From contig JAFQQD010000032.1 of assembly GCA_017411435.1 (NCBI GenBank), positions 1-42,454 of the forward strand: 42,454 nucleotides of DNA. The letters are read 5' to 3'. Below, piece by piece: positions 6,525 through 30,528 of this stretch; positions within the stretch are counted from its first letter, which is position 1; every line of letters starts with the position of its first letter. This DNA comes from Clostridia bacterium (GTDB lineage Bacteria > Bacillota > Clostridia > UMGS1883). The notes beneath the pieces were generated by a model, which worked only from the letters and a program-made list of their open reading frames with translations, did no database searches and was not told where the DNA came from. Made by a program: the position numbers and the translations under genes.

Positions 6525-7448
6525 TTAGTTGTTTTTATGCAGAAATGCCGCACCGATTATGCCTGCATCTCCGCCGATTTTTGACATGGATATTTCAGGA
6601 ATACCGATTTCGTCTGCACAGAATGCGTGTTTCTTTGCGTAATCAATAAGCGGAAGAAGTATTACATCCCCCTGTGCCGAAACGGCACCGCCGATTACGA
6701 TTTCATCGGGCTGGAAAATATTTATCATATCAACAACGCCGATAGCAACCTCTTCAATCCAGTCGGAAACGATTTTCTTTGCACCATCGTCGCCTTTTTC
6801 GGAAAGGTCAAAAATCAGTTTTCCTGTAATTTCATCGTTTTTGCCAAGGGATTTCATTTCATCCCTGCGCTCTGTGGCGGTCTCGATAAGTCCGGTCATA
6901 GAACCGTATTTTTCCCAGCAACCGCGTCTGCCACAGTTACACTCTCTGCCACCTGCGCGCGTAACGATGTGCCCAAGCTCACCTGCTGCACCGTTTGAAC
7001 CGAGGAAAAGTTTTCCGTCAAGAATTACTCCGCCACCGATTCCAGTGCCGAGAGTTATAAAAATAAAGTGAGGGGATTTCTTTGATTTATAATATTCGCC
7101 AAGTGCGGCGCAGTTAGCGTCATTATCCACGAAAACAGGAATATCGCCCAGGCTTTTCTGCAGAAAATCACGGGCATAAATTCTCTTGTAGCCGATATTT
7201 TCAGCTTCAAGCAAAATACCTTCTTCTCTTTCTACTGCACTGGGAGAGCCAACACCGATTGATTTTATTTCGTCTATGCCGATATTTGCCTCATCCATAG
7301 CTTTTTTAATACATTCAAGCATTGCACGGCAAAACGCATCTTCGTCATTACACGGAGTGGGAACAGCGCATTTGGTGAGGATTTTTCCGTCCTCACTTAC
7401 AATGCCTGCCTTAATGCTCATTCCGCCTATATCTACACCTATGTACAT
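6525..7448 (-). CDS. glcK: ROK-family glucokinase
   Basis: A 307-residue ROK-family sugar kinase. The N-terminal phosphate-binding loop VDIGGMSIKAGIV, the catalytic stretch FVDNDANCAALGE, the GTGIGGGVI motif and the zinc-binding CNCGRRGCWE motif (about 165-173) are all present, as in bacterial glucokinases. It converts glucose to glucose 6-phosphate in the cytoplasm. Glucokinase rather than another hexokinase is inferred from length, motifs and its place next to a phosphofructokinase. GGAG lies 7 bases before the ATG. Confidence 0.9.
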   Translation of the reverse strand: MYIGVDIGGMSIKAGIVSEDGKILTKCAVPTPCNDEDAFCRAMLECIKKAMDEANIGIDEIKSIGVGSPSAVEREEGILLEAENIGYKRIYARDFLQKSLGDIPVFVDNDANCAALGEYYKSKKSPHFIFITLGTGIGGGVILDGKLFLGSNGAAGELGHIVTRAGGRECNCGRRGCWEKYGSMTGLIETATERRDEMKSLGKNDEITGKLIFDLSEKGDDGAKKIVSDWIEEVAIGVVDMINIFQPDEIVIGGAVSAQGDVILLPLIDYAKKHAFCADEIGIPEISMSKIGGDAGIIGAAFLHKNN

Positions 7449-14767: not shown

Positions 14768-16201
14768 TTATCTTCTGCGTCTTCTCTTTTTAAGTTTTTT
14801 ACGGATTTTGTTTGTAATCATCGCTGCTGCCATAAGTGCGAGGAACGCCATCATAAAATATGAAAACGCGGAAATATTGTTGCTTTTAACCTGCGTCCAC
14901 ATTTCAAGCACCGCCTGATTTTTATCGCCGAAATCTTCCATAATTCCGCACCGTGCAACTTCATCGAGTGACGGATACTGTGTGGTAAGCTGTCTTCCTA
15001 AGGCGTTTGTTTTTATGATTGCCTTCCCGTTTGTATAATGTTTCTCGGAAAGCGTTCCCTCGAAGAAATAGGAAAGGTCATATTCGTATTTCCCGTCCTC
15101 ATCCTCATAATTTTCTTTCACAAGCTCAAAAATCTCGTCACCTGCAATCGCACTTGTATAGCCGATGTAGTCCATATTCATAACTGCAATTTCAGGCCTG
15201 CACAGAAAGTCAACAAAATCCTGAGCAAGCTCTGTGTTCGCGCCCTTGGGCATTACCCAGCCGTCAAACCATATGGTTGAGCCCTCATCGGGGATTTTGA
15301 AGGCGAGGAGCTTGTCATCCTCATCTTCGGCAAGGTCCATTGCATAAACGGCATCACCGCTCCACGCAAGGTTTGCGTCAATCTTGCCCGATACAATATC
15401 TGTCTTGCCCGAGTCAACCTCAAATCCGTAGATGTTTTTCTTCATTTCGGAAAGAGCCGTGCCGACATTTTCGATAGTTTTATCAGTCGTATCGTTTGCA
15501 ACCGCATTTACGGTTTTCTGCAGCTCTTCAGCCTTTATTTCACCGTTTTCGTATTTTCTGTTTGCCTCGCGCAGTTTTTCACGCTGAACATAGAGCGAGC
15601 CTACAACATACGCATCGCGCGAAACATCCTTACATGTGACGCGGTTTTTGTAGTCCGTGTTCCAGAAAAGGTCCCATGTTGAAACATCTTCATATTTTAT
15701 TGTTTCAGGGTTATACAAAAATCCGACCGTACCCCACATATACGCAACTGCGTAATCTGTCCAGTCATTCTTCTGGAATAAGTCCGAAATGTAGGGAGAT
15801 ACATACTTTGTATAATTCTCCATTTTGGAAATGTCAAATTTCTCAACGGAAATTGCATCGTCCGTACCCTCTTTTGTTGCAAGAAGCATCTTTTGTATTA
15901 TGTAGTCGGACGGACATACAAGGTCGTAGCTCGTTTTCCCTGTGCGCAGGGTGTTGAGCATTGTTTCGTTTGTTTCAAATGTATCGTACTGTACGCGTAC
16001 TTTTTTTCCTGTACGGCGCTCGTAATCCTTTTCCCACAGCTCCATAACAGAGTCGGCAATTTTTGCGCCATCGTCATCCTTGCCTTCGTTTATGTAATCC
16101 TGCCAGTTATAAACGCGCAGGACCTCCTCCTCGGCAAAGGCGGACGGAGTATAAAGGAAAAGAAGCATCATACAAAGAAGCAGTGCATTAAATCTTTTCA
16201 T
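14768..16201 (-). CDS. potD: Polyamine ABC transporter substrate-binding protein with C-terminal anchor
   Basis: A 477-residue extracellular binding protein of the PotD/PotF type: RVYNWQDYI near the mature N-terminus, YDLVCPSDYI, and SIEKFD/NYTKY-like segments. The N-terminus is a signal peptide ending in AFA. It has no lipobox cysteine. Instead the C-terminus has one hydrophobic span (about 445-463) and a basic tail of five arginines, so the protein is probably held in the membrane by its C-terminus. The start at 16201 has AAGGAG upstream and overlaps the end of potC. Spermidine/putrescine as substrate is inferred from family and operon. Confidence 0.9.
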   Translation of the reverse strand: MKRFNALLLCMMLLFLYTPSAFAEEEVLRVYNWQDYINEGKDDDGAKIADSVMELWEKDYERRTGKKVRVQYDTFETNETMLNTLRTGKTSYDLVCPSDYIIQKMLLATKEGTDDAISVEKFDISKMENYTKYVSPYISDLFQKNDWTDYAVAYMWGTVGFLYNPETIKYEDVSTWDLFWNTDYKNRVTCKDVSRDAYVVGSLYVQREKLREANRKYENGEIKAEELQKTVNAVANDTTDKTIENVGTALSEMKKNIYGFEVDSGKTDIVSGKIDANLAWSGDAVYAMDLAEDEDDKLLAFKIPDEGSTIWFDGWVMPKGANTELAQDFVDFLCRPEIAVMNMDYIGYTSAIAGDEIFELVKENYEDEDGKYEYDLSYFFEGTLSEKHYTNGKAIIKTNALGRQLTTQYPSLDEVARCGIMEDFGDKNQAVLEMWTQVKSNNISAFSYFMMAFLALMAAAMITNKIRKKLKKRRRRR

Positions 16202-16994
16202 CGCTTTTTTTCTCCTTGGAGTTAACATTTACAATGATAAGTATTACAAGGGCAATCAGCGTAATAACCGTTGTCAGCGCACGAAGTGACGGGGGAAGAG
16301 TTCCCTTTTTACTTGTAACACCGTAAACATAGGTGCTGAGTGTCTGGAACGCCGTATCCCTTGTAAAAGCAGTTATGATATAGTCATCGAGTGAAAGTGT
16401 GACTGACAGTATAAATCCTGAAAACACACCGGGCATAATCTCGGGCAAAACGATAGAGCGAAGAGCCTTCGCCGGTGTTGCACCAAGGTCAAGCGCCGCC
16501 TCATAAATATTGGGGTCCATCTGCATCAGCTTCGGACGGACGGACAGCACTACAAACGGAATAGTCAGCACTACATGACCGACAAGAAGTGTGATAAAGT
16601 TAAACTGCACACCGAAAAATACGAAAAGAATTGTAAGCGACAGAGCCGTTACGATTTCCGCATTCATAACGGGTATGTTGCCGATACCCTCCATAATTGC
16701 CTTGGTACGCTTTTTGCTGTAAAAAATACCTATCGCACCGAGTGTGCCGAGGATTGTTGACACCACCGCAGAGGATATTGCAACGAGGAATGTGTTGTAA
16801 AACGCCTGCATAATCTCTTTATCGCGGAAAAGAGTGCGGTAAAGGTGCATGCTGAACCCGTCCCAGTTGCCGATAATTTTTGTGTTGGTAAAACTGAACG
16901 CGATAAGGAGAAGTATGGGTGCATACATCACAAAAAGAAGGATGTACACATAGAATTTGCACAGAAAATCTGTAAGCGAAAAATTCTTTTTCAT
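16188..16994 (-). CDS. potC: Polyamine ABC transporter permease PotC
   Basis: A 268-residue inner-membrane permease with about six hydrophobic spans and the cytoplasmic EAA loop (EAALDLGATPAKALRSIVLPEI) that contacts the ATPase. Sequence and order match PotC/PotI proteins. The ATG at 16994 overlaps the potB stop as TAATG and has GGAGG 9 bases upstream; a GTG two codons earlier is too close to that site. It overlaps potD by 14 bases, showing tight translational coupling. Confidence 0.94.
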   Translation of the reverse strand: MKKNFSLTDFLCKFYVYILLFVMYAPILLLIAFSFTNTKIIGNWDGFSMHLYRTLFRDKEIMQAFYNTFLVAISSAVVSTILGTLGAIGIFYSKKRTKAIMEGIGNIPVMNAEIVTALSLTILFVFFGVQFNFITLLVGHVVLTIPFVVLSVRPKLMQMDPNIYEAALDLGATPAKALRSIVLPEIMPGVFSGFILSVTLSLDDYIITAFTRDTAFQTLSTYVYGVTSKKGTLPPSLRALTTVITLIALVILIIVNVNSKEKKSDEKI

Positions 16995-17791
16995 TACCAC
17001 AGACCTCCTCTTACTTCTTCTTCGGGCGCGGAGTCAGTGCACAGCGAGCCAAACGCAATAATTACAAGCATAATAAGTGCAACAAGGCTTCCTATATGCC
17101 ATAAGCCCTGGTCAAAATAAAGCTGAATACTGTTACCTATAAGAGAAATTTTCCTCTCACCCATAACATCGCTTATAACATAACTGCTCATAGTCGGCAT
17201 AAATACCATTGTCGATGCCGACACAACACCTGGCATCGTCATGGGCAGAATTGTTTTGAAGAATGTCTGCACCTTGTTTGCGCCCAGGTCATAGCTTGCC
17301 TCAATAAGCGAAATATCCATTTTTGTCATCGTAGTATAAAGCGGCAGAATTACAAACGGCAGATAGTTGTAAACCATACCTATCATTGTCGCAAGATACG
17401 GATGCTCACCGCCCGATATCCCCATCCAGAAAAGAAGGTCGCGCGTTGCTGCGGTGCGCAGAACAAAGTTAATCCACATCGGCATCACGAAAAGAAGCAC
17501 AGTCGCCTTGCCGAATCCCATGCCCTTTTTCGCAAGGAAAAATGCGGCAGGGTAACCAAGGAGCAGGCATATAGCCGTATTTAACATCCCTATAAATATA
17601 CTGAACATCAGCGTATTTATATTGTGTCCGCCCGAAAAGAATGTGCTGAAATTAGAAAGTGTCAGCATGCCATTTTCATCGGTAAAGGCATACGCCACGA
17701 TAAGAAACAGCGGAATCACAACAAAAAGTATCAGAAATACAGCATAGGGCACGGCGAGAGTTTTTCTGGAAAAAATCTTATTTTTTCGCAT
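16994..17791 (-). CDS. potB: Polyamine ABC transporter permease PotB
   Basis: A 265-residue permease with a basic N-terminus, about six membrane spans and the EAA motif ([25 protein letters not shown]). It pairs with PotC to form the channel. Its start overlaps the potA stop by 14 bases, and its stop shares one base with the potC start. There is no gap for internal regulation. Confidence 0.94.
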
Positions 17792-19265
17792 ACTGCTTCG
17801 CCTCTCCCTTCAATTTAAGCTTTATATCTTCGGGCTTTACATTAAGACCTACAAGGTCATTTTCATCATAGGTGTATTCGGTGTCAAGTACGAAATCCTC
17901 ATCCTCAGGTGTACGGATAGTCAACTGATAATGGTCACCCTTGTAGATGATTGACACGATTTCGCCACGCACAATACCCGATTCGTCATCGTCAAGGATT
18001 TCAATTGCGTCAAGACCGATTGTTGCAACAACATCGGCATCGGTAAAGTCATACTTCGTTCCGTCAGGACCTACCACATAACCCTCATCGTCAAGCGAGG
18101 AGCCCTGCACAAGAGCTGTTATATCGCAAGGGAACGGAGTTTCAGAAATAACAACGCGGTTCTGCTTGTCAATATACGCATCGTTATAAATATTCGCCGT
18201 AAGCTCTTTCTTCATGATATGAATACCGTCAGGCTCAATGTCAAACATATATGTCTTGCCCACATCAAAACTGCGTGTATCAACAACTACAAGCTCATTT
18301 CTGCCAACCATAAGGATATATTCATAGTGAATACCCTTGAAAATTTTGCTGACGATTTTGCCTTTTGCCATCCCTTCTTCATTTTCTTTGATATGAACAT
18401 CTTCGGGGCGGATTACGATATCAACCTTTTCATTTTTCGGGAATTCATCAACACAGTCGAAGGTATGGTTGATGAAACGCACCTTCATATCGCCCTTGTA
18501 AGTACCGCTGTAAATGTTGCTTTCGCCGATGAAGTTTGCAACGAAAGCATTATTGGGTTCGTTATAAATGTCCTCGGGCGAGCCTACCTGCTGAATCATA
18601 CCGTCCTTCATAACAACAACAGTATCGGAAAGTGTAAGCGCCTCTTCCTGGTCGTGTGTAACATAAATAAATGTAATGCCGAGTTTTTTATGCATCGCTT
18701 TAAGTTCAAGCTGCATATCCTTACGCATTTTAAGGTCAAGTGCGCCGAGTGGCTCGTCAAGAAGAAGTATTTCAGGCTCGTTAACAATCGCGCGGGCAAT
18801 GGCAATTCTCTGCTGCTGACCTCCTGAAAGAGTTGAAATATCACGGTAATCATAATCCTCAAGGTCAACTATTTTAAGCGCATTTTTAACTTTTTTATCT
18901 ATTTCTTCTTTTGTAAGATGGCGCATTTTACCGCCGTCTTCTATCTTTTTGAGTTTAAGACCGAATGCGATGTTGTCATAAACATCCATATGGGGAAAAA
19001 GTGCATATTTCTGGAAAACCGTATTTACAGGGCGCTCATAAGGCGGAAGCTGTGCAATATCCTCCCCGTTTAAGAGAATTTCGCCGCCTGTCGGCAGTTC
19101 GAAACCTGCAATCATACGGAGTGTGGTGGTCTTACCGCATCCGCTGGGACCAAGAAAGGTTACAAATTCCCCTTTTTTGACGCGCAGCGAAAAATCCTCA
19201 ACCGCGTAAGTCTGGCCAAAGTGTTTGGACACATTCTTCAGTTCGATAATTACTTTTTCTTTCAT
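17778..19265 (-). CDS. potA: Polyamine ABC transporter ATPase with extended C-terminus
   Basis: A 495-residue ATPase: Walker A GPSGCGKT near residue 36, the Q-loop, signature LSGGQQQR near 140, Walker [13 protein letters not shown], and the switch His in YVTHDQEEA. The usual PotA is about 350-380 residues. Here the C-terminus carries a first TOBE-like unit (about 275-355, with VIRPEDVHI) and then a second, similar one (about 405-490, with [10 protein letters not shown]). The extra unit may add a ligand or regulatory site. The start at 19265 has AGAGGTG upstream. First gene of the operon, directly behind a structured element. Confidence 0.93.
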
Positions 19266-19278
19266 CTGTAAACACCTC

Positions 19279-19558
19279 TTAAGCACACGGAAGTCGAACC
19301 CCGTATGCCTTAAATTTGTAAAATTTGCACACTTTTCATTTGTCGTCCGTAGAAGGCGTCAGCCTATCTTCGTCCTCCGCATAAAAATTGCACTAAATTT
19401 TATGCATTTAAGGTCGAAGAGTTTTAAGGTAGACAATTTTCGGTTAAGGCAAGTAAAATTCTGCAGAGAATACAGTTCGTATTTTCAAGGAATTTTACGC
19501 AGTATTAATCAAAATTGGCATCTTAAAACCATACCGGGTTCGACTTCCGTGTGCTTAA
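19279..19558. repeat. 280-bp element with long terminal inverted arms, family C, copy 1
   Basis: The outer 29 bases (19279-19307 and 19530-19558) are complementary at 28 of 29 positions and start with TTAAGCACACGGAAGTCGAA. The core is related to 30300-30496, sharing TTTGTCGTCC, a GGC/GCC mini-hairpin and CGTCCTCCGCAT in the same order and spacing. A GCATAAAA hairpin and GTAAAATTC/GAATTTTAC lie further inside. The end nearest potA abuts its ribosome binding site, so the element would form part of the potA leader if transcribed through. No gene inside. Confidence 0.8.
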
Positions 19559-19592
19559 AATAAAAAATGCAGGTTGCATTACACAACCTGCG
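19557..19592 (-). terminator. Terminator of the structured RNA upstream of potA
   Basis: GCAGGTTG and CAACCTGC (19569-19576, 19584-19591) form an 8-bp GC-rich stem followed by six T on the minus strand. Confidence 0.85.
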
Positions 19593-19850
19593 ATAATATC
19601 TGCTTTTTAAGAGTCCTCCAAACGAGTCCTCTCGCGGATTTCGGACATACAGAGTCACTACTCTTATTGACCATTTCACAAGTTTGCGTAACACGCATTT
19701 CGGTTATAAAGTAACCAACTTATAAAACTGAGCTTTTAACTCAATCAATAATAAGGCGAAAAATTCGCCAATCGGCAGTGGACCCGGCTGTCCGTATGGC
19801 CTTAACTCTTGCGAGTGGTCCGAAATATTTGTTGCAGAAATTATCTGCTT
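19592..19850 (-). ncRNA. Candidate structured RNA of unknown family upstream of potABCD
   Basis: About 260 bases bounded by a promoter and a strong terminator on the minus strand, with no plausible reading frame. The ends pair (GAUAAU 19840-19845 with AUUAUC 19592-19597). A long-range 9-bp helix joins AUUUCGGAC (19818-19826) and GUCCGAAAU (19638-19646). Inside are ACUC-GCAA-GAGU with a GNRA loop, GGACC/GGUCC, GGCGAA/UUCGCC, a three-way junction closed by AAGUU/AACUU with GGUUA/UAACC and UGCGU/ACGCA hairpins, and GAGU/ACUC. GAGGACUC occurs twice near the 3' end. It lacks recognisable signatures of RNase P, tmRNA, SRP or common riboswitches; 6S-type or raiA-type RNA cannot be excluded by eye. 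It could be an independent RNA or an attenuator for potABCD. Confidence 0.7.
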
Positions 19851-19855
19851 TAGTT

Positions 19856-19886
19856 ATTATACTACTAAAAGGTGGGGGCGTGTCAA
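19856..19886 (-). promoter_or_regulatory. Promoter of the structured RNA
   Basis: Perfect TTGACA (19881-19886) and perfect TATAAT (19856-19861) on the minus strand, with a spacer of 19 bases, two longer than ideal. Confidence 0.7.
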
Positions 19887-20010
19887 GAGGTTTTTGAACT
19901 TTTTTTGTCGATTCAAGGAGGATTTTACCTAAATTGAAAATATCTATTGCGTTTTTATCTGAAAAAGTATAAAATTATAAGATGTAAAGTGCCTATAAAG
20001 GAGAATTCCT

Positions 20011-20703
20011 ATGATTATTAAAATTGCAGGACTTGTCATTGATGTAAAAAATAAATACAAGCATTTTGAAGATTATTGCAAGGAGTTTGAGTTTGACGGA
20101 AAGCCGCATTTTTCCGTCAAAGTTCCCGACAAGGTAATGCGCGAAGTCACGAAGAAAAACCCCGACTTTTCTGACGGATATCTTGAAACGCTTGAAATCT
20201 ACAGAATCATCTGCCGCAAAATCTTAAAATATGACGCAATGCTTATGCACTGCGCCGCAGTTGCCGTTGATGGTGAGGCGTATCTTTTCACCGCAAAAAG
20301 CGGCACGGGAAAGACAACTCATATCAATTTATGGCGTGAAAAATTTGGTGACAGATTTGTCGTTGTAAACGGCGATAAGCCCATCTTGCGCATCCGTAAC
20401 GGAAAATTCTTCGCCTGCGGCACTCCCTGGCGCGGCAAGGAAAATTACGGGCACAATATTGTAGCACCCGTCAAGGCGGTTTGCATCTTAGAGCGCGGCG
20501 AAAAAAATGAAATAGAAAAGATAGCCCCACACGAGGCTATCTCGACAGTTTTAACACAGACACTTCGCACAAACGATATGTACGAAATGGAAAAAATGCT
20601 TGTTCTGATTGATAAACTTTTAGCATCCGTTCCCTTTTACCGTCTTCGCTGCAATATGGAAAGCGAAGCCGCAACAGTTTCTTACGAAGGGATGCAGAAT
20701 TAA
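20011..20703 (+). CDS. HPr-kinase-like P-loop protein of unknown substrate
   Basis: A 230-residue protein with a P-loop (TAKSGTGKTTHINLW, GKT at 100-102) preceded by a conserved MHCAAV stretch, a GDKP segment at 121-124 and CGTPWRGKE at about 136-144. This arrangement is found in proteins related to the C-terminal domain of HPr kinase/phosphorylase. It lacks the HPr kinase N-terminal domain, and no HPr gene is adjacent, so phosphorylation of HPr is not claimed. Similar proteins in Clostridia often lie near peptide-modification genes; none is seen here. AAAGGAGAA precedes the ATG. It seems to be a single-gene unit. Confidence 0.75.
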   Translation: MIIKIAGLVIDVKNKYKHFEDYCKEFEFDGKPHFSVKVPDKVMREVTKKNPDFSDGYLETLEIYRIICRKILKYDAMLMHCAAVAVDGEAYLFTAKSGTGKTTHINLWREKFGDRFVVVNGDKPILRIRNGKFFACGTPWRGKENYGHNIVAPVKAVCILERGEKNEIEKIAPHEAISTVLTQTLRTNDMYEMEKMLVLIDKLLASVPFYRLRCNMESEAATVSYEGMQN

Positions 20704-22917: not shown

Positions 22918-22935
22918 GACATAAATAAACAAAAT

Positions 22936-23098
22936 TGGTAGAGGCGCGGTTATTATCAGTACCTTTTACATCAGGCAATCGGTAAAAGCGAAAGGAATCA
23001 CCGCCGAAGCAATGTGTATGCCAGTGCATATCTGCTGGGCCGTCAGAGAATATCTGCCGGACTGTCACAAGGGGGAAACCCTCGTGGAGCGCTATCGT
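22936..23098 (+). promoter_or_regulatory. Lysine riboswitch (L box) aptamer
   Basis: The conserved blocks of the lysine aptamer appear in order: GGTAGAGGCGCGG, CAGTA, CGAAAGGAAT, CACCGCCGAAGC, GCTGGGCCGTC, GGACTGTCAC and the closing GAGCGCTATC. The closing P1 helix pairs GGTAG with CTATC. A terminator follows about 45 bases later. Lysine binding is expected to stabilise the aptamer and let the terminator form, turning off the transporter downstream. Confidence 0.95.
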
Positions 23099-23141
23099 GA
23101 TTCAAAATAATGGTAAAGAATATATTTTCATTGTTCTTCCA

Positions 23142-23218: not shown

Positions 23219-24808
23219 ATGAAAAGAAAAAATCATCTTTTCGCAATCTGCGCGGCACTGATTCTTTTAGTGCTGTGCCCCGCGGCAGCTTTTGCCGAGG
23301 AAGGAGAAGTAGTCTCCAAAATGGCAGGAACATTCTGGTCGCTCGTTCCGCCGATTATCGCGATAGGTCTGGCACTTATCACAAAGGAAGTTTACAGCTC
23401 GCTCTTTGTAGGTGTTCTTATGGGCGGACTCTTTGCCGCAAACTTCAGTCCCCTTAAAACAGTTGACACTGTTGTAAATGAAGGTCTTATCGCCGCAGTT
23501 TCAGGAACAGCGGGAATATTTATTTTCCTTGTTGTTCTGGGCGCAATCGTAGAGCTTGTCAACAAAGCAGGCGGCAGCGCCGCTTTCGGCGAGTGGGCAA
23601 AAGAGAACATCAAATCGCGCACAGGTGCAATGATTGCAACATTTATCCTTGGCGTACTCATCTTTATTGACGACTACTTTAACTGTCTCACAGTAGGTAC
23701 AGTAATGCGTCCCGTTACAGATGCTCACAAAATTTCAAGGGCAAAACTTTCATACCTTATTGATGCTACTGCAGCACCTATCTGTATGATTGCTCCTATT
23801 TCTTCATGGGCAGCGGCAGTATCCGAATTTGCTCCCGAAGGACAGGGGTTAAAGCTCTTTATTCAGGCAATCCCCTATAACTTCTATTCACTTCTTACAC
23901 TTGTGTTTGTTGTGGCAATGGCAGTTATGAAGGCGGATTACGGCCCCATGGCACTCCACGAAAAGAACGCGATGGAAAAAGGCGACCTCTTCACAACAGG
24001 TGAGCGCAGGGAATCAGTACAGACACAAGTTTCTTCAAGAGGCAGAGTTATTGATTTAATAATGCCCATAATCGTACTTATCGTAGTTTGCGTGTTTGCG
24101 CTTGTTTATGTCGGCGGAATCCTTGACGGTGCAAACTTCATTGACGCATTTGCAAATACTGATGCAACAGTCGGTCTTCCTCTTGGCGGACTTATTGCTC
24201 TTATCGTTGCTATTATCTATCTTATAGCACGCAGAGTTATAACATTTAAGGAAGCCATGGACTCTATCCCAAAAGGCTTTATGGCGATGGTACCTGCTAT
24301 CACAATTCTTACACTTGCAACATCACTTAAGAATATGACAGGACTTCTCGGTGCAGACGCCTATGTTGCAGGACTTATGGAAGGCGCAGCAGCAGGACTT
24401 GCTAATTTCCTTCCTGCGATTATTTTCCTTGTTGCTTGCTTCCTTTCTTTCTCAACGGGAACATCATGGGGAACATTCGGTATCCTTATTCCCATTGTCG
24501 TTGCAATTTTCCCTGCAGGAAGCGTAAATCTTATTATCGGTATGTCAGCCTGCCTTGCAGGTGCAGTATGCGGTGACCACTGCTCGCCTATATCAGACAC
24601 GACAATTATGTCATCTGCAGGTGCTGAATGTGACCATATCAACCATGTTTCAACTCAGATGCCCTACTCAATAAGCGTTGCAGCGATATCATTTGTAATG
24701 TATATTATTTCAGCGTTTATAAAGAGTGCGTATATTCTTCTCCCTGTGGGAGTGCTCCTTACCATCCTATTCCTTTTCATAATTAAAAAGAATATGGCAA
24801 AAAACTAA
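23219..24808 (+). CDS. lysW: NhaC-family transporter, predicted lysine importer
   Basis: A 529-residue polytopic membrane protein of the NhaC Na+/H+ antiporter family with about 11-12 spans, and polar motifs within spans such as IDDYFNCLTVG, APISSWAA, STGTSWGTFG and GDHCSPISDTT. Because a lysine riboswitch controls it, lysine transport is the likely role; earlier comparative work on the lysine regulon predicted NhaC-type LysW proteins as lysine transporters. The N-terminus looks like a cleavable signal peptide ending AFA at residue 26, which is unusual in this family. AAGGAGG precedes the ATG. Confidence 0.85.
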   Translation: MKRKNHLFAICAALILLVLCPAAAFAEEGEVVSKMAGTFWSLVPPIIAIGLALITKEVYSSLFVGVLMGGLFAANFSPLKTVDTVVNEGLIAAVSGTAGIFIFLVVLGAIVELVNKAGGSAAFGEWAKENIKSRTGAMIATFILGVLIFIDDYFNCLTVGTVMRPVTDAHKISRAKLSYLIDATAAPICMIAPISSWAAAVSEFAPEGQGLKLFIQAIPYNFYSLLTLVFVVAMAVMKADYGPMALHEKNAMEKGDLFTTGERRESVQTQVSSRGRVIDLIMPIIVLIVVCVFALVYVGGILDGANFIDAFANTDATVGLPLGGLIALIVAIIYLIARRVITFKEAMDSIPKGFMAMVPAITILTLATSLKNMTGLLGADAYVAGLMEGAAAGLANFLPAIIFLVACFLSFSTGTSWGTFGILIPIVVAIFPAGSVNLIIGMSACLAGAVCGDHCSPISDTTIMSSAGAECDHINHVSTQMPYSISVAAISFVMYIISAFIKSAYILLPVGVLLTILFLFIIKKNMAKN

Positions 24809-30241: not shown

Positions 30242-30528
30242 CTGAGTTAGCCTTAACGACCAACACTGAAGACGCCTCAAACCGCGAATTTTCGGTATAT
30301 TTCGGTTTGTCGTCCTTGAAAGGCGAGTAGCCTTCCTGCGTCCTCCGCATCAAAATCTTCTCAAAAATTCATCGATTTGAGGTCTGCGGAGTTTTAGAAT
30401 AATGAATTTTGTCTTAATCAAGGCAAAAATACAGGAAATATGGTAATATTTCCGAGGCTTTTAACGATGAGTAAGGCGAAATTCATATTATAAAACCGAC
30501 TTTAGTGTTAGTGGTTAAGGCTACTGAG
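30242..30528. repeat. 280-bp element with complementary arms, family C, copy 2
   Basis: The core (30300-30496) matches copy 1 (19340-19529) in order and spacing. The outer arms (30242-30274 and 30497-30528) are complementary to each other in an imperfect way, sharing TAGCCTTAAC and AACACT, but have no similarity to the arms of copy 1. GGAAATAT/ATATTTCC replaces a different inner hairpin of copy 1. The right arm includes the last codons of the ABC ATPase gene; the left arm ends about 8 bases from the yerC ribosome binding site. Confidence 0.72.

Follow-up and report, generated by a model that had tools for sequence, protein, structure and literature searches.

The window analysed here is a 42,454-nt stretch from a Clostridia bacterium, and it raises the question of what a long, structured RNA is doing upstream of potABCD, which encodes a spermidine/putrescine importer. 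The initial annotation had seen either a free RNA or a terminator-controlled leader that senses polyamines or a related metabolite. The reading that we hold with good probability, from comparison of homologous loci, is that the RNA is a cis-acting, transcription-terminating OFF riboswitch of an undescribed class, which would sense spermidine or a related polyamine.

The RNA element and its homologues

The minus strand of the window carries a promoter-like pair of boxes, about 290 nt of non-coding sequence and an intrinsic terminator (Table 1). The conserved part of this RNA spans 19821-19651, or 19886-19560 with promoter and terminator included. Its predicted fold (-99.7 kcal/mol) is much more stable than those of shuffled sequences (-66.8 +/- 4.5 kcal/mol; z -7.3), and the region has no convincing open reading frame. 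The consensus boxes, terminator, high degree of structure, GNRA hairpin (capped by GCAA) and three-way junction described in the initial annotation are all present, the junction being P7/P8/P9 of the conserved fold. Three of its other observations hold in part. A 9-bp helix (19826-19818/19646-19638) is a perfect match but overlaps conserved P2 and lies outside the conserved fold, and the two copies of GAGGACUC are found in a non-conserved spacer; this helix and the GGACUC repeats were therefore dropped from the model. End-to-end pairing is strong in the homologues but weak in the window, where 289 of 1000 shuffles pair equally well, and the window helix was rejected.

The Rfam search that the initial annotation had suggested matches the 5' domain to RF02440 (SpF59_sRNA, ldcC RNA) with 69.2 bits, above the gathering threshold of 37.2; among the homologues, too, only RF02440 is matched at gathering threshold. 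By score, the window RNA is a member of this family. RF02440 itself is a truncated entry of 54 nt, typed as gene/sRNA with no function, which lacks the three-way-junction domain, P1 and the expression platform. Thus, the impression that the RNA belongs to no known class fails for its core and stands for the full element, which is undescribed in the literature searched. Matches to PyrG-leader, snoRNA and sRNA models at E-values of 1-9 fall below their own gathering scores and were taken as chance.

Of 398 Bacillota genomes sampled, 18 contain RF02440, as do 8 of 60 relatives. A scan of species genomes for the core pattern returned at least 118 stretches, nearly all of them true members; L029, L032 and L129 were rejected as false positives without any other feature of the RNA, and L026, L067 and L081 were left out as the RNA is cut at the locus ends. 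Among the matches listed, members come from Clostridia, Paenibacillus, Bacillus, Neobacillus, Kurthia, Acidaminococcus, Phascolarctobacterium and Lactococcus, as well as from single metagenome-assembled genomes labelled Spirochaetes and Synergistaceae. The strongly conserved shared sequence is about 165 nt long, three times the Rfam model, and the conserved element (about 165-200 nt) consists of the 5' pseudoknot domain and the three-way-junction domain, usually within a closing helix. A covariance model (R1) built from 46 homologues matches 20 of the 398 genomes, including two missed by RF02440.

Table 1. Positions of the RNA element, its expression platform and the controlled operon in the window.
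Feature	Position	Strand	Remarks
-35 box TTGACA	19881..19886	-	sequence; promoter-like pairs conserved upstream in homologues
-10 box TATAAT	19856..19861	-	spacer to TTGACA 19 nt
Alternative -10 box TAGTAT	19864-19859	-	spacer 16 nt
5' pseudoknot domain	19772..19821	-	equals the RF02440 match; P2, P3, P3b, pseudoknot
P2	19821-19817/19784-19780	-	outer pair covaries
P3, GCAA loop	19816-19813/19808-19805	-	covaries
P3b	19801-19799/19788-19786	-	
Pseudoknot	CGG 19794-19792 with CCG 19775-19773	-	invariant in homologues
P4 hairpin	19755..19769	-	double compensatory changes in all six pairs, 90 homologues
3' domain	19664..19751	-	P5 encloses hairpin P6 and three-way junction P7/P8/P9
P5, long 9-bp helix	19751-19743/19672-19664	-	
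P6 hairpin	19742-19730	-	
P7	19727-19717/19684-19674	-	three-way junction
P8	19716-19702	-	three-way junction
P9	19697-19685	-	three-way junction
P10 hairpin AGAGU/ACUCU	19651..19664	-	site of an insert with the P1 3' strand in most homologues
Antiterminator 5' strand ACGCAAACUUGUG	19677..19689	-	3' sides of P9 and P7
Antiterminator 3' strand CGCAGGUUGUGU	19581..19592	-	5' arm of the terminator
Intrinsic terminator and U-tract	19560..19591	-	stem 19591-19569
Repeat element, 280 bp	19279..19558	.	TTAA-ended terminal inverted repeats; between terminator and potA SD
potA SD AAGAGGTG	19280-19273	-	
potA start ATG	19265	-	
Controlled operon potA, potB, potC, potD	14768..19265	-	spermidine/putrescine importer; Pfam, NCBIfam

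Conserved structure and covariation

The fold has two domains: (i) a 5' domain of P2, P3, P3b and the CGG/CCG pseudoknot; and (ii) a 3' domain of P4, P5, P6 and P7/P8/P9. Covariation among homologues, which the initial annotation had named as a check on the helices, is readily seen. In an alignment of 90 homologues (A2), which was aligned to the covariance model and hence leans towards it, 94.4% of pair cells are paired, as opposed to at most 46% when the partners are slid, and double compensatory changes occur in 28 of 51 pairs (370 cells of this kind vs. 108 in shuffles). An independent MAFFT alignment of 46 sequences gives 92.2% paired cells and 17 pairs with double changes (149 cells vs. 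50). The Streptococcaceae add further rewired pairs in P2 and P3b (A3, by eye). The pseudoknot does not vary and hence offers no covariation to judge it by. In the homologues, the ends of the element are joined by the long closing helix P1, whose strands pair better within their own locus (-22.1 kcal/mol) than between mismatched loci (-16.1 kcal/mol); none of 5000 permutations was as good. The element thus contains a conserved structured domain with covariation, as expected of a riboswitch.

A few homologues have lost one of the domains. In L162 and L175 the 3' three-way-junction domain is kept and the 5' pseudoknot domain is unrecognisable, while in L118, L127 and L135 it is the 3' domain that is rebuilt or reduced, next to a retained 5' domain; polyamine genes still lie downstream in all five. 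Together with L030 (see below), these variants hint that the two domains may be separable, possibly as two sensing or tuning modules.

Association with polyamine genes

At 154 of 156 evaluable loci, a polyamine gene is the first to follow the RNA on the same strand, an association that is independent of the locus searches because these used the RNA sequence only. All 129 loci of the main set conform, with speD in 41, an Orn/Lys/Arg decarboxylase in 36, potA in 30 and carboxynorspermidine synthase in 22, as do the additional loci L135 and L175 (speD) and L159 and L162 (decarboxylase) and 21 of 22 Streptococcaceae loci (potA 15, decarboxylase 6). Genes were assigned via diagnostic sequence motifs, and Pfam and NCBIfam searches confirmed representative cases. 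The pot operon, whose retention downstream the initial annotation had proposed to check, is one of several targets. In one exception (L196), an IS200-like transposase gene sits between the RNA and the position that the decarboxylase occupies in the near relatives L193 and L194. In the other, L030 of Holdemania massiliensis (core near 7417, reverse strand), an apparently complete 5' pseudoknot domain with no 3' domain precedes a non-polyamine lipoprotein gene. The RNA thus lies in the 5' leader of a functionally coherent set of genes. Some Streptococcaceae carry two copies of it (L167/L177 and L117; also genomes G514 and G520); where both copies were read, one stands before potA and the other before a decarboxylase gene.

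The expression platform

Promoters upstream of the RNA and strong terminators downstream of it are conserved. The former score at least 10 in 68% of loci against 1.7% of shuffles, and for the latter the figures are 67% and 0.3%; about one third of loci have no clear terminator in the terminator scan. Within the aptamer, the stretch that makes up the 3' sides of P9 and P7 has its complement in the 5' arm of the terminator; the window version, ACGC-a-AACUUGUG with CGCAGGUUGUGU, comprises 12 base pairs and one bulge. Across 91 loci, this antiterminator averages -13.3 kcal/mol with its own partner, -10.8 kcal/mol with partners from mismatched loci and -7.6 kcal/mol in shuffles. No match as good arose in 5000 permutations, nor when another 5000 were restricted to loci of the same gene class (z -9.3). 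In Lactococcus (L117, L133), both antiterminator partners differ from those of other groups, and the pairing is retained. Sequence comparison therefore reveals mutually exclusive structures that overlap the aptamer. For the nascent window RNA, the aptamer (-87.1 kcal/mol) and antiterminator (-83.4 kcal/mol) states are predicted to be close, and completion of the terminator is predicted to put the aptamer-plus-terminator state ahead by 12.5 kcal/mol; these two-state energies ignore the pseudoknot and kinetics.

Sequence comparison thus supports the RNA element itself, its fold, promoter, terminator and antiterminator, and its association with polyamine genes. The last of these, together with conserved promoters and terminators, a locus-matched antiterminator and covarying helices, lends strong support to the second option of the initial annotation, a putative terminator-controlled leader that senses polyamines. 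Its first option, a free RNA, is not favoured by the gene association and the locus-matched antiterminator. A free-standing, trans-acting sRNA, as RF02440 ("Gene; sRNA") and pneumococcal F59/srn235 are filed, would have its own promoter and terminator as seen here, and pneumococcal catalogues include such a transcript (PMC3395615; PMC12323649). However, an sRNA acting in trans would have no need to stay upstream of and co-directional with polyamine genes at nearly every locus, or to be matched at each locus to its own terminator arm, and a short transcript is also the remnant expected of a terminated riboswitch. We regard this explanation as very improbable.

On the other hand, an attenuator leader read by a protein, in which a polyamine-responsive RNA-binding regulator rather than a small molecule stabilises the aptamer-like fold, would give the same gene association, covariation and antiterminator. 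The large conserved two-domain fold, the invariant pseudoknot and the many invariant unpaired bases are nevertheless typical of aptamers, and no common regulator gene adjoins the loci in a search limited to neighbouring genes; a protein reader is thus unlikely.

Proposed mechanism and ligand

We infer that the RNA is a riboswitch that binds a spermidine-like small molecule directly, with OFF polarity. Transcription would start at the RNA's own promoter, and the aptamer would fold while RNA polymerase advances. When polyamine is abundant, the folded aptamer would be stabilised, holding AACUUGUG paired inside the three-way junction; with this segment sequestered, the terminator would form and polymerase would halt ahead of potA. 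With polyamine in short supply, AACUUGUG and the adjoining ACGC would instead pair with the 5' arm of the terminator, CGCAGGUUGUGU, and this antiterminator would permit read-through into potABCD, turning on import (or, in other species, synthesis). As aptamer formation favours the terminator, the ligand should turn the genes off.

The gene sets appear to converge on spermidine-type polyamines. In the window genome (96.7% complete), no AdoMet decarboxylase (SpeD), spermidine synthase or NspC was detected, which makes decarboxylated SAM or MTA an unlikely ligand and an imported polyamine a likely one; the match to an Orn/Lys/Arg decarboxylase is sub-threshold only. In this genome, the switch would gate import. 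A riboswitch with the same mechanism could respond to another ligand, such as arginine, ornithine, lysine, agmatine, putrescine, cadaverine, SAM, MTA or the general load of divalent or polycations. Decarboxylase genes are indeed common targets (over a quarter of the main set), and a lysine riboswitch lies nearby in the window. Yet potA, carboxynorspermidine synthase and speD share a triamine product rather than a single amino acid, and the SpeD/SpeE route to decarboxylated SAM or MTA is unavailable in the window genome, so that a different ligand seems improbable.

Published pneumococcal data fit this reading. The homologue F59 is encoded between SP0915 and SP0916, on the same strand as SP0916 and immediately ahead of it (PMC3395615), and a longer form, srn235, spans 869478-869804 (PMC12323649). 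Short terminated products of the proposed OFF riboswitch would probably accumulate. In a pneumococcal potABCD deletion mutant, SP_0916 and SP_0918 are up 17-fold and 14-fold, respectively, by qRT-PCR, a rise not seen in RNA-seq from the same study (PMC8540371). Low polyamine could account for this effect indirectly.

Relation to known riboswitches

Polyamines stick to RNA of any kind, and it has long been disputed whether dedicated riboswitches sense them. The only validated class is a SAM-I-variant spermidine riboswitch, which has the four-stem SAM-I fold and is known from 13 examples (Salvail et al., 2023; PMC10853860), whose discoverers state that further classes must exist (PMC10853860). 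It shares downstream polyamine genes (speE, speB, ldcC) with the class described here and is likewise a transcription-terminating OFF switch with a terminator and antiterminator (PMC10853860). In contrast, the present class is far commoner and has potABCD, speD and carboxynorspermidine synthase among its targets as well; a search of 19400-20050 returned no SAM-family match at E-values up to 10 and no four-stem SAM-I fold. The speF, potE and odc1 motifs and the potABCD ABC-leader also occur near polyamine genes and are set apart from the window RNA by description only; the speF motif is alphaproteobacterial (PMC11477304) and the ABC-leader is reported in Haemophilus/Pasteurella (PMC2965389). 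Attenuating riboswitches in general, for instance the lysine riboswitch of the window (22931-23102), have the same layout of promoter, structured domain, exclusive antiterminator and terminator, and targets that make sense for feedback, whereas the fold and conserved sequence of the window RNA match no other Rfam riboswitch. The window RNA appears to work like a transcription-terminating OFF riboswitch and is a candidate member of this kind.

No description of SpF59, RF02440 or ldcC RNA as a riboswitch was found in the literature searched, and the main texts of two RNA-discovery papers (PMC6429828; PMC11109978) contain no polyamine motif. The idea may already have been proposed in some other paper, and the Rfam alias "ldcC RNA" suggests that a link to lysine decarboxylase has been noticed. 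On balance, we favour a widespread class of polyamine riboswitch that occurs in about 5% of the Bacillota genomes sampled, has a two-domain aptamer unrelated to SAM-I and controls both synthesis and import. If so, the class would be common and structurally distinct, with members in gut Clostridia, Paenibacillus, Bacillus relatives, Lactococcus and streptococci; it would account for F59, the orphan "sRNA" of pneumococcus, and for the way in which many gut bacteria couple polyamine synthesis and uptake to supply.

The window copy and its surroundings

The window copy keeps the aptamer core, antiterminator and terminator. The insert with the 3' strand of P1, the canonical closing helix, is missing both here and in the same-genus locus L023. 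In addition, a 280-bp repeat stands between the terminator and the potA Shine-Dalgarno sequence. It has TTAAGCACACGGAAGTCGAACCC at one end and an inverted copy at the other, and the genome contains at least five more near-full copies of the repeat (77-95% identity) as well as a partial one in the window (30306-30396). It is absent from the same-genus relatives L020, L022 and L023, and it is not part of the switch, though it lies inside the leader. Since the P1 strand is lost and the repeat is inserted before potA, regulation by the window copy may be weakened or altered, which limits claims for this copy and not for the class. In another genome of the same genus (L176, genome G402), the RNA before potA has no 5' domain and carries a long inverted-repeat insert; it is apparently a decayed switch. 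The lysine riboswitch of the window (RF00168, 104.5 bits, plus strand) lies upstream of a Na+/H+ antiporter-family transporter gene (23219-24808), and probably controls lysine uptake or export.
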